Positions 3,223 to 43,765 of a stretch of DNA of 51,130 bases are shown piece by piece. Each line of letters starts with the position of its first letter. Positions within the stretch are counted from its first letter, which is position 1. The DNA is from Campylobacterales bacterium (GTDB lineage Bacteria; Campylobacterota; Campylobacteria; Campylobacterales; Sulfurospirillaceae). Location of the stretch: the NCBI GenBank assembly GCA_016930915.1, contig JAFGFU010000034.1, positions 1-51,130 of the forward strand. The letters are read 5' to 3'. Position numbers and translations under genes: made by a program. Below the pieces are notes generated by a model, which was given only the letters and a program-made list of their open reading frames with translations, was not told the DNA's origin and searched no databases.

Positions 3223-4248
3223 ATGAACTACAAAATACACCACCTCTCACATACTGATTTGGATGGCTATGGCTGTCAGATGGTGAGTGCCCATTTTTTT
3301 GATTCGATCAGTTTTTATAACTCCAACTATGGTAAAGAAATTAACGAATGTTTCAATCAAATCTTAGCCGATATTCAAACATCCACTTTAGAAAAACACG
3401 TGATTTTAATTACGGATTTAAATTTAACGATGGAGCAAGCTACAGAGTTTCAAGCTAAAGTCAATATCTGTGATAAAGAGATTATGCTACTTCTCTTAGA
3501 CCATCACAAAACAGGTGAAGAGTGTGCCAATACGTATGAATGGTACTTTTTAGATTCGAGTCGCTGTGCCACGAAAATTACCTATGACTTTTTCAGTGCC
3601 CTCTATGGTGAGAATGAGGCACTTGCACACTTTGTTAATGTGGTTAATGCTGTAGATATCTGGCTTGAAAATGACCCTCACTTTGAATTAGGAAAAGTCT
3701 GTATGGGATTGGTCAGTGGGGCTAAAGAAGTCAATAAAATCATGTTTCCTCGTGAAAATACAGCCTATATTTTTTCACTTCTTTCTCAAGCACAAAACTT
3801 TTTTACATGTAAAGATGCACATATTGCTTTAGACGATGCCATTCATGGAATTAAAAAAACGTATTTTAAAAACACAGACAATAATACACTCAGTAATCTT
3901 ATCTCGACTTACAACGTTATGTTACTGACACGTAACAAAGAAAGAATGCAAATTAACTATAAAGAGTATAAAGGTATTCTTACGTACAACATTGGCAACG
4001 TTTCTGTCATTGGCAATGACTTCCTAAGCGCTAACCCTGATTTTGATTTTTTTATGGATGTCACCTCTAAAAAGACCATTAGTTTACGCTCTAGTGGTAA
4101 AGTAGATGTCAGTAAAATTGCTGCACAAATTGCCAATGGTGGAGGACACCATAATGCAAGTGGAGGTCTTCTCAGCAACTTCAAAGACGCTTTTATTTAT
4201 GATAGCATCAAATCTCAAGTGATGAATATCATCGCTAACAAAGGATAA
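3223..4248 (+). CDS. DHH/DHHA1-family phosphoesterase
   Basis: A 341-residue protein with the DHH phosphoesterase layout: SHTDLDGYG (9-17) and DHH (93-95) supply metal-binding residues, and GGGHHNASGG (306-315) is the DHHA1 substrate motif. Relatives include nano-RNases, oligoribonucleases and cyclic-dinucleotide phosphodiesterases. It lacks the extra domains of RecJ or GdpP, so a small cytoplasmic phosphodiesterase acting on short RNA or nucleotides is most likely; the substrate cannot be read from sequence. An AAGGA site precedes the ATG. It follows flhA by 28 bases and the next gene by 3, suggesting one transcript. A copy of the TTACATGTAA word lies at 3803. Confidence 0.88.
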   Translation: MNYKIHHLSHTDLDGYGCQMVSAHFFDSISFYNSNYGKEINECFNQILADIQTSTLEKHVILITDLNLTMEQATEFQAKVNICDKEIMLLLLDHHKTGEECANTYEWYFLDSSRCATKITYDFFSALYGENEALAHFVNVVNAVDIWLENDPHFELGKVCMGLVSGAKEVNKIMFPRENTAYIFSLLSQAQNFFTCKDAHIALDDAIHGIKKTYFKNTDNNTLSNLISTYNVMLLTRNKERMQINYKEYKGILTYNIGNVSVIGNDFLSANPDFDFFMDVTSKKTISLRSSGKVDVSKIAAQIANGGGHHNASGGLLSNFKDAFIYDSIKSQVMNIIANKG

Positions 4249-6075: not shown

Positions 6076-9482
<3,407 letters not shown>

Positions 9483-12416: not shown

Positions 12417-13619
12417 TTATTTATCCAATTGGTATGCACTGTGCAAGGCACGAACGGCTAATTCACCATATTTTGCTTGAATCACCATAGAAATTTTAAT
12501 TTCACTGGTACTAATCATTTCAATATTAATACCCTCTTTTGCCATTGTATCAAAGGCTTTACATGCTACACCACTGTGTGATTTCATACCCACACCAACA
12601 ATTGAAACTTTTACGATATCACTATCATATTCAACGCCTTCACTCGCTCGCAACTCATTCATAGCTGCTTTGGTCATTTCAAGCTCATTTTGAGGAACAG
12701 TAAAACCTAAATTAGTGGTGCCATCATGCCCTACATTTTGAATAATCATATCAACGTTGACATTACTGTCAGCCAATTTTTTGAAAATTTCAGCCGCAAT
12801 GCCTGGCTTATCTGTAACGCCACGAAGAGTGACTCTTGCTTGATTTTTATCGAGTGCAATACCGCTAACCAATGGTTGTTCCATAATGTTATCTTCCTTT
12901 GTAATAAGTGTTCCCTCATTTTTATTAAAACTGCTTCGTGTCACTAAATTGACATTCAATTTTTTAGCCATTTCAACGGAACGGCTTTGAAGCACTTTTG
13001 CTCCTAAACTTGCAAGTTCGAGCATTTCATCGTAACTGATTTTATCCAATTTTTTTGCTTTAGGCTCAATGCGTGGATCTGTGGTATAGACACCATCTAC
13101 ATCAGTGAAAATTTCACATAAATCCGCTTCAAGAGCTCCTGCAATAGCAACAGCGGATAGATCACTTCCCCCTCGCCCTAAGGTGGAAACCTCACCATCG
13201 TGTGTTACACCTTGGAATCCAGCCACGACAATAATTTTACCCTCAGCCAATGCATTTTTCATCTCTTGCGTATCAATATGCTCAATTCTCGCTTTCGTAT
13301 GGACATTATCTGTCACAATACCCGCACGTCTGCCACTCATAGAAATCGCAGGATATCCTTGTGCTTCAAGAGCAATGGCTAAAAGTGCACTAGTAACACG
13401 CTCACCAGAACTTAAAAGCATGTCCACTTCACGCACGTTAGGTGTTGTGCTAAAATGTGACGCGAAATCTAAAAGTTTATTTGTTTCACCGCTCATGGCA
13501 GAAACCACGACAACAAGATCATGACCTTCTTGTTTGCTTTCAATTACCCTTTTGGCAACAGCTTCAATACGCTCCACATTGCCGACACTTGTCCCTCCAT
13601 ACTTTTGAACAATCAACAT
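12417..13619 (-). CDS. lysC: Aspartate kinase
   Basis: LysC phosphorylates aspartate, the first step toward lysine, diaminopimelate, threonine and methionine. The 400-residue product has the amino-acid-kinase domain opening KYGGTSVG (6-13), the LGRGGSDLSAVAIA segment, and two ACT regulatory domains after about residue 260 (LRGVTDKPGIAAEIF and VSIVGVGMKSHSGV). It is of the monofunctional, ACT-regulated class, so feedback by lysine and/or threonine is expected. rppH ends 1 base upstream and hobA starts 3 bases downstream. Confidence 0.96.
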   Translation of the reverse strand: MLIVQKYGGTSVGNVERIEAVAKRVIESKQEGHDLVVVVSAMSGETNKLLDFASHFSTTPNVREVDMLLSSGERVTSALLAIALEAQGYPAISMSGRRAGIVTDNVHTKARIEHIDTQEMKNALAEGKIIVVAGFQGVTHDGEVSTLGRGGSDLSAVAIAGALEADLCEIFTDVDGVYTTDPRIEPKAKKLDKISYDEMLELASLGAKVLQSRSVEMAKKLNVNLVTRSSFNKNEGTLITKEDNIMEQPLVSGIALDKNQARVTLRGVTDKPGIAAEIFKKLADSNVNVDMIIQNVGHDGTTNLGFTVPQNELEMTKAAMNELRASEGVEYDSDIVKVSIVGVGMKSHSGVACKAFDTMAKEGINIEMISTSEIKISMVIQAKYGELAVRALHSAYQLDK

Positions 13620-34138: not shown

Positions 34139-34182
34139 TATCTTTACATGTAAAATAATTCTTACATGTAAAGATAATTTTT
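34139..34182 (+). terminator. Terminator made of two TTACATGTAA words
   Basis: Bases 34139-34153 pair perfectly with 34162-34176 (15 bp) around an 8-base loop, followed by ATTTTT. The stem is made almost entirely of two facing copies of the palindromic word. It begins directly after the stop codon of the exported hypothetical gene. The minus side lacks a T-run, so it serves the plus strand. Confidence 0.75.
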
Positions 34183-36808: not shown

Positions 36809-36837
36809 ATTTTACAACTTTAGTCTATTGTTGTCAA
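36809..36837 (-). promoter_or_regulatory. Canonical sigma-70 promoter of clpB
   Basis: On the minus strand TTGACA (36837-36832) is followed after exactly 17 bases by TAAAAT (36814-36809). A full -35 box with ideal spacing is unusual beside the other promoters in the window, which rely on T-rich DNA plus a -10 box. No HAIR element was seen here. Confidence 0.7.
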
Positions 36838-41720: not shown

Positions 41721-41731
41721 TTAACTGCTAC

Positions 41732-41782
41732 AAAAGTGGCTTTTTTTCTTGGCTCTTTTTGATACAATAGCGCCACTTTTTT
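41732..41782 (+). terminator. Possible plsC terminator around the htpG promoter
   Basis: AAAAGTGGC (41732-41740) can pair with GCCACTTTT (41772-41780), followed by TT. The 31-base loop contains the htpG -10 box, so transcripts from plsC and from htpG would fold differently. The large loop makes termination uncertain. Confidence 0.4.
41763..41768 (+). promoter_or_regulatory. -10 box of htpG
   Basis: TACAAT preceded by CTTTTTGA, the group's usual pattern. Transcription would begin near 41775, giving a leader of about 80 bases before the ATG at 41855. Confidence 0.6.
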
Positions 41783-41835
41783 GGATTTTTCAAAGTGCTT
41801 TCTTCTTTACATGTAAAGCATTTGAAAAAATCCAA
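41781..41835 (+). promoter_or_regulatory. Long leader stem-loop upstream of htpG
   Basis: The arms 41781-41801 and 41815-41835 are near-perfect inverted repeats (21 bases each, one single-base bulge on either side), with a TTTACATGTAAA word at the loop edge. The structure ends 5 bases before the AAAGGA ribosome site. It could be a leader hairpin controlling stability or translation of a heat-shock mRNA. Confidence 0.6.
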
Positions 41836-41854
41836 TTACTAAAGGAAATATAAA

Positions 41855-43726
41855 ATGTCAAAACATCAATTTCAAACCGAAGTCACTCAACTTCTGGACC
41901 TTATGATTCACTCTTTGTATTCAAACAAAGAGATCTTTTTACGCGAACTTATCTCCAATGCTTCCGATGCACTGGATAAGTTAAATTATCTCACGTTAAC
42001 CGATGAGAAATACAAAGCACTCTCGTATGTGCCACGCATTGACATCGCCATCAACAAAGAAGCCAAAACACTCACACTGAGTGACAGTGGCATTGGTATG
42101 AACGAAGAAGATTTGGTTGAGAACCTTGGAACCATTGCAAAAAGTGGTACAAAATCCTTCTTACAAAACCTCAGTGGTGACAAAAAGAAAGATTCAAGCC
42201 TTATTGGTCAGTTTGGTGTTGGTTTTTACTCAGCGTTTATGGTTGCTAACAAAATTGAAGTTATAAGCCGCAAAGCAGGTGAAGAAAAAGCGTATATGTG
42301 GAGCTCAACCGCGGGTGCTGAGTATGAAATCACCGAAGTATCAAAAGAAAGCCACGGCACGTCCATTACCTTACATATGAAAGACGATGAAGATGAATTT
42401 TTAGAGTTTTACCGCATTCAAAGTGTCATCAAAAAATACTCAAACCACATTCCTTTTCCTATTTTTATGGATAAAGAAGTGAAAGAATTTGACGATGAAG
42501 GCAAAGAAAAAAGCGTTGAACTTAAAAATGAGCAAATCAACAAAGCAAGCGCTTTGTGGACGGTAGCAAAAAGCCAAATCAAACCTGAAGAGTACAAAGA
42601 CTTTTACCAACAAATCTCTCACGACAGTACCGATCCACTGCTTTGGAGCCACACAAAAGCTGAAGGAAAATTTGAGTACACCACCCTCTTCTACATTCCA
42701 TCCACACCTCCAATGGATTTGTTTAGAATGGACTACAAGCCAGGCGTTAAGCTCTATGTTAAACGTGTTTTCATTACGGACGATGAGAAAGAACTTTTAC
42801 CAACTTACCTTCGTTTTGTCAAAGGTATTATCGATGCGGAAGACCTGCCACTTAACGTCAGCCGTGAGATTTTACAACAAAACAAAGTGCTTGAGACCAT
42901 CAAAAAAGCTTCGGTTAAAAAAATCCTGAGTGAGCTGAAATCTCTCAAAGAAAAAGAGAGCGACAAATACCTAGAGTTTTACAAAAATTTCGGTCGTGTT
43001 GTTAAAGAAGGACTTTACAATGACTGGGAAAATAAAGAAGCACTACTAGAGCTTGTACTGTTCAAATCGTCAAAATGCGATGGCTTAGTAAGCCTTAAAG
43101 AGTATAAAGAAGCGATGAAAGAAGATCAAAAAAGCATCTACTACATCACGGGAGAGAATGAGAAATTATTGAAAAATTCTCCGCTTATTGAGCAATTTAA
43201 AGCCAAAGACATCGAAGTCTTGCTTTTGGATGAAGAAGTCGATGCCATCGTCTTCCCAATGGTGGGCGAGTACGATAAAACACCTATAAAACCTGTCAAT
43301 AACTCAGACATTGATGAAGAAATCAAAGAAGATAAAGCCAAAGTCGAAGAAGATGAAAAAACCTATAAAGAGATTTTGGTTAAAATGAAAGAAATCCTCA
43401 AAGACGATGCGAAAGATGTCAAAATTTCTAGCCGTTTGAGTGACTCTCCATCATGCCTCGTGTACGATAAAAACGACCCAGACTTCCAAATGCAACAGAT
43501 GCTCAAACAAATGGGACAAGACAATCTTCCAACCGTTAAACCTATCTTAGAGATCAATCCTGAGCATGAAATCTTCAAAAAGCTTAGCGCTAAAGCCGAT
43601 CTTTTAGAACTTAGTGACATCGCTTTTTTACTTCTTGATCAAGCAAAACTTCAAGAAGGCATGAAAATCGAAGATACAGCAGCGTTTGCTAAACGCTTGA
43701 ACCGTTTTATCGCTAAAGCGCTTTAA
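41855..43726 (+). CDS. htpG: Hsp90 chaperone HtpG
   Basis: HtpG is the bacterial Hsp90. The 623-residue product has the GHKL ATPase domain with [33 protein letters not shown] and [15 protein letters not shown], a middle domain with [11 protein letters not shown] and [16 protein letters not shown], and a C-terminal dimerisation domain. Length is normal for the family. It follows plsC after a 134-base gap holding its own promoter and a long leader hairpin. Confidence 0.98.
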
Positions 43727-43733
43727 AAACACT

Positions 43734-43765
43734 CTTACATGTAAGGATTTTTCCTTACATGTAAA
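43734..43765. repeat. Hairpin of two TTACATGTAA words after htpG
   Basis: Bases 43735-43747 pair with 43752-43764 (13 bp) around TTTT. Both arms contain the palindromic word. No T-run follows, so it is not a classical terminator; a third copy lies at 43814, within the presumed leader of the next gene. Confidence 0.7.

Follow-up and report, generated by a model that had tools for sequence, protein, structure and literature searches.

A structured leader RNA of htpG in a Sulfurospirillum-type bacterium hosts one copy of a genome-wide palindrome, a possible DNA uptake signal

The USS of the Pasteurellaceae is a densely iterated uptake sequence whose flanks are A/T-rich at a distance of about one helical turn, and neither the USS nor the DUS of the Neisseriaceae is, to our knowledge, a perfect palindrome. 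The accessible parts of two papers on the DUS describe inverted pairs that serve as terminators and a spacing of about 1.1–1.5 kb (PMC2397512), as well as lineage variants known as dialects (PMC3630211). The available text of a further paper names these two families as the only ones known for sequence-specific uptake (PMC12616744). Cyanobacterial HIP1, a site associated with methyltransferases, is treated in PMC4390886. At the level of RNA, disruption of a stem-loop in the 5' UTR of Helicobacter pylori vacA was described to shorten the half-life of the mRNA (available parts of PMC4843948).

The stretch of 51,130 nucleotides analysed here (the window) contains a stem-loop in the leader of htpG, and the loop of this structure carries a copy of the 12-bp palindrome TTTACATGTAAA. 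The palindrome resembles the USS in its dense iteration and has slightly A/T-rich flanks about one helical turn off; the two motifs are presumably unrelated in sequence. Its likeness to the DUS comprises a length of about 10–12 nt, very numerous copies, both intragenic and intergenic, inverted terminator pairs at close spacing, a stop codon in one frame and lineage variants, as far as the accessible parts of PMC2397512 and PMC3630211 describe the latter. In contrast to the DUS, the motif is a perfect palindrome, it occurs in Campylobacterota, and a role in uptake is proposed from its anatomy. With HIP1 it shares the palindromic form, the genome-wide occurrence and exceptions among related species (available parts of PMC4390886), but no methyltransferase is common to the motif-rich genomes in the two families covered, and terminator-like pairs are present. 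Like the vacA element, as described in the available parts of PMC4843948, the htpG structure is a stem-loop in a 5' leader in the same phylum, but it belongs to another gene and differs in sequence. The joint explanation that we prefer, with a probability of about 0.45, combines a selected 5' RNA stem-loop with a loop copy of a genome-wide palindrome that would act as uptake signal.

Position and fold of the htpG leader stem-loop

The htpG coding sequence (41855–43726, plus strand) encodes 623 amino acids, starts with ATG at 41855 and lies downstream of a plsC-like gene, which owes its name to the preliminary description of this DNA. The closest HtpG found is 97% identical, and the source genome is of the Sulfurospirillum type. 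On direct reading of the plus strand, a predicted −10 box of the htpG promoter, TACAAT, is located at 41763–41768, the place at which relatives have TACAAT or TAAAAT, and the ribosome-binding site AAAGGA at 41841–41846. On the assumption that transcription begins about 7 bases after the −10 box, the start would fall at 41775–41776. The leader stem-loop spans 41781–41835 on the plus strand, as supported by folding, covariation and covariance-model matches. Its ends are formed by TTGG (41781–41784) pairing with CCAA (41832–41835), and at 37 °C an outer stem of 10 pairs is separated by a 2x2 internal loop from an inner stem of 9 pairs, above which a bulge precedes a single closing pair. The preliminary description had announced a near-perfect 21-bp stem ending 5 bases upstream of the ribosome site; the stem and its distance from the ribosome site were confirmed, while "near-perfect" was slightly generous for about 20 pairs with an internal loop and a bulge.

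Folding of positions 41776–41870 gave −19.4 kcal/mol (z −4.0), and none of 200 shuffled sequences was equally low; the hairpin folded alone reached z −5.5 against shuffles. A scan for ungapped hairpins with 20-base arms and at least 18 matches, a count outside of which the interrupted htpG stem falls, revealed three hairpins in 446 kb of the source genome and none in three shuffles. The window had no Rfam match at the gathering score, and below this threshold six matches of microRNA type and to rliD were found in the region. A covariance model built from eight leaders (see below) gave no second strong match in the 446 kb, the next best having E 0.12; on these grounds the idea that this genome has a larger set of similar leaders was rejected. 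On the minus strand of the window itself the model reaches E 1.5e-4, since the hairpin is an inverted repeat. As no T run follows the 3' arm on either strand, the hairpin was also rejected as an intrinsic terminator.

A hairpin resembling an intrinsic terminator belongs to plsC (41727–41748, plus strand). It consists of GCTAC-AAAA-GTGGC (stem 41727–41740) followed by a T run, and a similar GCCAC-AAAA-GTGGC is found in relatives. For RNA reading through from plsC, an alternative pairing of 41732–41740 (AAAAGTGGC) with 41772–41780 (GCCACTTTT) had been proposed. It exists in the letters, but is not conserved: of the relatives with the leader hairpin, only L021 and L023 have the partner, GCCAC or ACCAC before a T run, and the others have lost it. 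Since, in addition, most of 41732–41740 belongs to the 3' half of the plsC hairpin, the pairing was rejected.

Conservation and role of the stem-loop

From the species genomes 79 htpG loci were collected, and the leaders of 34 of them were compared with the window. A comparable hairpin was recognised by eye in 11 of the 34 (L021, L022, L023, L024, L025, L027, L029, L030, L033, L071 and L096), all of them from near relatives. The folding z-scores lay between −3.7 and −7.5 in all 12 hairpin leaders, the window included, and between −0.6 and −1.7 in four of four leaders without hairpin. L026 lacks the hairpin despite 89% HtpG identity. The predicted leader length was 73–93 nt in 11 hairpin-bearing sequences and 18–33 nt in eight sequences without hairpin; the value of 69 for L030, an artefact of a −10 box picked inside the stem, was excluded from this range.

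Eight leaders (window, L021, L022, L023, L024, L027, L033 and L096) were aligned to assess covariation. Paired cells amounted to 95.0%, and double changes occurred at 5 of 15 pairs, a count reached by 85 of 500 shuffles. The covariation score of 0.288 was reached by none of the 500 shuffles, and slid versions of the alignment scored 0.043–0.117. The covariance model from these leaders matched the untrained L025 (E 2.8e-5), L029 (1.5e-4) and L071 (0.011); L030 was not matched on the plus strand, although it folds into a similar hairpin. Covariation across species, which the preliminary description had suggested as a check, thus spoke for the hairpin, with base pairs kept via compensatory changes and matches in untrained leaders. 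The htpG leader hairpin is a real, structured and selected leader RNA, and its structure and covariation are direct observations. It looks like an insertion in one Sulfurospirillum clade that is maintained by selection for pairing.

Among the three suggestions of the preliminary description, protection of the htpG mRNA by a 5'-terminal stem-loop is the most plausible mechanism, ahead of standby loading of ribosomes and of a response to temperature; the vacA stem-loop is an experimental parallel to it from this phylum. The predicted start site lies 7 bases past the −10 box, and therefore the stem would be situated within a few bases of the predicted 5' end. A stem-loop acquired at this place in one Sulfurospirillum clade would block 5'-end-dependent decay and presumably raise or stabilise the htpG mRNA, with the ribosome site staying open beside it. 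As such, the hairpin is a further example of the known 5' leader stem-loops and, taken alone, a modest addition.

Other explanations of the hairpin fared less well. An RNA thermometer governing htpG translation is very improbable. The computed accessibility of the ribosome site does rise between 15 and 42 °C in the window (from 0.28 to 0.56) and in L021 (from 0.02 to 0.40), where a U run pairs weakly with the ribosome site, and also in L029, L071 and L096. In all five, however, the rise is due to pairings outside the main stem, accessibility is nearly flat in L022, L023, L024, L025 and L033, and the ribosome site is not within the conserved stem. The temperature response suggested earlier was not borne out, and a conserved thermometer was rejected for want of a conserved, melting sequestration of the ribosome site. 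Its place at the promoter and predicted transcription start of a chaperone gene would also suit a heat-shock repressor that binds the inverted repeat as a DNA operator, which we consider highly improbable: in a window scan with what we take to be the CIRCE and HAIR consensus sequences, CIRCE had no match and the sole HAIR-like match, at 36818, was at chance level, and the compensatory changes alter letters, which suits pairing over a fixed protein site. Both operators were rejected for the htpG promoter, where their consensus is absent. It is hardly credible that the hairpin is a mere by-product of AT-rich sequence or of the arrival of a palindrome copy at this place. The inner stem does draw on the 3' end of the palindrome, but L022, L027 and L096, which are free of the motif, have kept the whole stem, and the outer stem, distant from the palindrome, carries compensatory changes as well.

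The palindrome in the source genome and across Campylobacterota

A DNA search of the leader against its own genome returned four short secondary matches, from which TTTACATGTAAA was recognised, as seen in L002. The palindrome is a genome-wide repeat with 681 exact copies in 2.23 Mb, a fact that had escaped the preliminary description, and a reversed control had none. The leader copy (41806–41817) occupies the hairpin loop and the 3' shoulder of the stem, and its exact core was found in 7 of 18 relatives examined. The core TTACATGTAA is present 1127 times in the source genome and 22 times in the window; with at most one mismatch, TTTACATGTAAA occupies 24 places in the window against 0.64 expected. 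In an unbiased count over 395 kb of the source genome, TTACATGTAA was the most over-represented 10-mer, with 198 places or 289 times the expectation. The symmetrised consensus is TCTTTACATGTAAAGA, and positions 11–13 from the centre are slightly A/T-rich.

Genes were called by a simple ORF script in 446 kb of the source genome, and rates per kb were computed from site counts and bases. The 220 core sites comprised 141 in reading frames (64%; an exact copy at 3802–3813 of the window is an example), 6 over stop codons and 73 between genes. Genes carried 0.34 sites per kb; intergenic regions had 5.0 per kb where the neighbouring genes converge, 3.2 and 2.0 where they are co-directional and 1.0 where they diverge. 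The reading frame that places TAA inside a gene was unused, and the other two were used 89 and 52 times. In S. diekertiae, 400 kb held 199 sites, 130 of them in genes; the rate between convergent genes was 9.45 per kb, and the density in genes was 0.34–0.35 per kb in the two genomes. Across 20 stretches of S. diekertiae, the site counts did not deviate from evenness (variance/mean 0.58). The largest site-free gap in the stretches of the source genome measured 14.4 kb and held, as read from translations, parAB, ATP synthase and Tol-type genes; these are core genes, and the gap is therefore not foreign DNA. A scan of viral contigs for the motif gave scattered matches among the matches listed, and a search for phage integrases gave two matches.

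Close pairs of palindromes, 13–36 bases apart, form strong hairpins in the source genome and in S. diekertiae. Directly past the htpG stop codon, two cores build a terminator-like hairpin (43734–43765; TTACATGTAAGGATTTTTCCTTACATGTAA), and 14 of 18 relatives examined have kept the two cores intact. This hairpin is conserved in most of the family, also where the leader hairpin is missing. A second paired hairpin is located between convergent genes at 34143–34172. The palindrome stood at the apex of longer stems at 4.2% of 72 intergenic sites, compared with 0.9% in the control, and at none of 147 coding sites; with so low an intergenic share, a general role as stem apex was rejected. At L108 1691–1770 (AAAAATCTTTACATGTAAAGATTTTT) the palindrome does form the tip of a longer inverted repeat, an unusual arrangement, as most copies have no extended arms.

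In 60 genomes, the source genome included, the 12-mer was present in all 24 members of its genus (14–792 copies); five genomes of the sister genus g4 had 0–3 copies and 23 genomes outside the family 0–1. Core counts within the genus ranged from 49 to 1496. Outside the family, in a count over 397 genomes of the phylum, the core was abundant in scattered members of two families, f17 (G414 380, G181 367, G404 354, G192 340 and G356 194; 31–96 in G245, G377, G225 and G258) and f11 (G384 1059, G369 78), and the rest had 0–19 copies. Within single genera the counts swing from background to hundreds (g21) or up to 78 (g64), and gain and loss of the motif are therefore rapid. No other 10-mer ranks above TTACATGTAA in G192 and G384, and in G181 it shares the first place with a neighbour shifted by one base. 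The preferred flank at −6 is T in the source genome and in S. diekertiae (G023) and C in G181, the latter read from only 17 sites. In G192 and G181 nearly all sites are intragenic, and close pairs are absent. The f11 genome G384 (L184–L189), with 45% GC, combines this AT-rich palindrome with a mostly intragenic location of its copies. A 6-kb contig labelled Helicobacteraceae (L070, genome G075) contains 4 core copies, with 896 in the genome, and its HtpG, at 61%, is far from Sulfurospirillum.

The complete genome G008 (L150–L159), a member of the same genus, has lost the motif, with 49 core copies compared with more than 1000 in many relatives, and a replacement motif was not evident in its 10-mer counts. 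This loss is useful for tracing the reader of the palindrome through gene loss, and the search for that reader is made tractable by the uneven presence of the motif among members of one genus. In G026 of genus g4 (L160–L169), which is without TTACATGTAA, a weak palindrome TATCATGATA occurs 13 times in 200 kb, about 10-fold over expectation, and is likewise centred on CATG; it is possibly a dialect.

DNA uptake and other readings of the palindrome

A search of open-access titles and abstract beginnings for the exact 12-mer gave nothing on these bacteria. Queries on palindrome, methylome, competence and uptake returned, among the open-access matches listed, no paper in which Sulfurospirillum is connected with the motif or with an uptake sequence. 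The accessible parts of the open-access literature on DUS and Epsilonproteobacteria, PMC2734928 included, do not describe the motif.

From its anatomy, the palindrome may be a DNA uptake signal, a tentative reading with a little less than an even chance. A receptor of the competence machinery would prefer DNA that carries the TCTTTACATGTAAAGA palindrome with its core TTACATGTAA, and recombination of such DNA would spread the motif to tolerant places, namely loops, terminators and permissive codons. The loop of the htpG leader would host one of these copies, with RNA hairpin and palindrome being two separate, overlapping things. The huge over-representation (681 12-mers against none of the control; 289-fold for the 10-mer) is as in an uptake sequence, and so are the spread in and between genes and the inverted terminator pairs in the source genome and S. 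diekertiae. Counting against uptake are the perfect palindrome, the lack of an emerging receptor, the core operon in the 14.4-kb gap and the intragenic, unpaired sites of G192 and G181. The wider proposal is possible, with the odds leaning against it: TTACATGTAA would mark a third way of recognising self-DNA during natural transformation, evolved independently and based on a palindrome, in Sulfurospirillum and in scattered members of the Campylobacterota. The lineages would use dialects (the T or C flank, possibly TATCATGATA in g4), and the putative receptor would be dimeric.

A serious if rather doubtful competitor is a HIP1-like site unrelated to uptake, kept by a DNA methyltransferase or by repair, or recognised by a chromosome-organising protein that binds as a dimer. 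A perfect palindrome iterated throughout the genome is what HIP1 would lead one to expect and suggests a dimeric or enzymatic reader; the even spread in S. diekertiae, the mostly intragenic copies of G192 and G181 and the cyanobacterial precedent with methyltransferases (available parts of PMC4390886) point the same way. However, the terminator-like pairs and the marked excess of sites between convergent genes are DUS-like, and no methyltransferase of PF02086 or PF01555, the two families covered, is common to the motif-rich genomes. Presence of these families did not track the motif count among the genomes tested, and the HIP1-like reading is weakened because G192, with 340 copies, has neither of the two. 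That the palindrome is mainly a building block of transcription terminators is quite improbable. Pairs do form strong hairpins past stop codons, and the rates between convergent genes (5.0 and 9.45 per kb) far exceed those in genes (0.34–0.35), but about two thirds of the copies are intragenic (141 of 220 in the source genome, 130 of 199 in S. diekertiae), and G192 and G181 showed no such pairs.

If the uptake signal is true, sequence-specific transformation would have arisen outside the two families named in the available text of PMC12616744, and in free-living bacteria, and the receptor of a palindromic signal would have to differ in geometry. If it is not, it would still have to be explained why a genome keeps the core of a 12-bp palindrome at as many as about 1500 copies.

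With regard to a receptor for the proposed uptake signal, ComEC was present in 45 of 45 genomes tested, motif-rich and motif-poor alike, and tblastn detected pilins beside it in most genomes of either kind. No candidate stands out in the genomes examined, since presence or absence of ComEC and prepilins does not track the motif count. In L193, two small prepilin-like genes lie near priA-, ispG- and dnaB-like genes and comEC (12498–13448 and 6838–8103), an arrangement that is conserved across families of the phylum.
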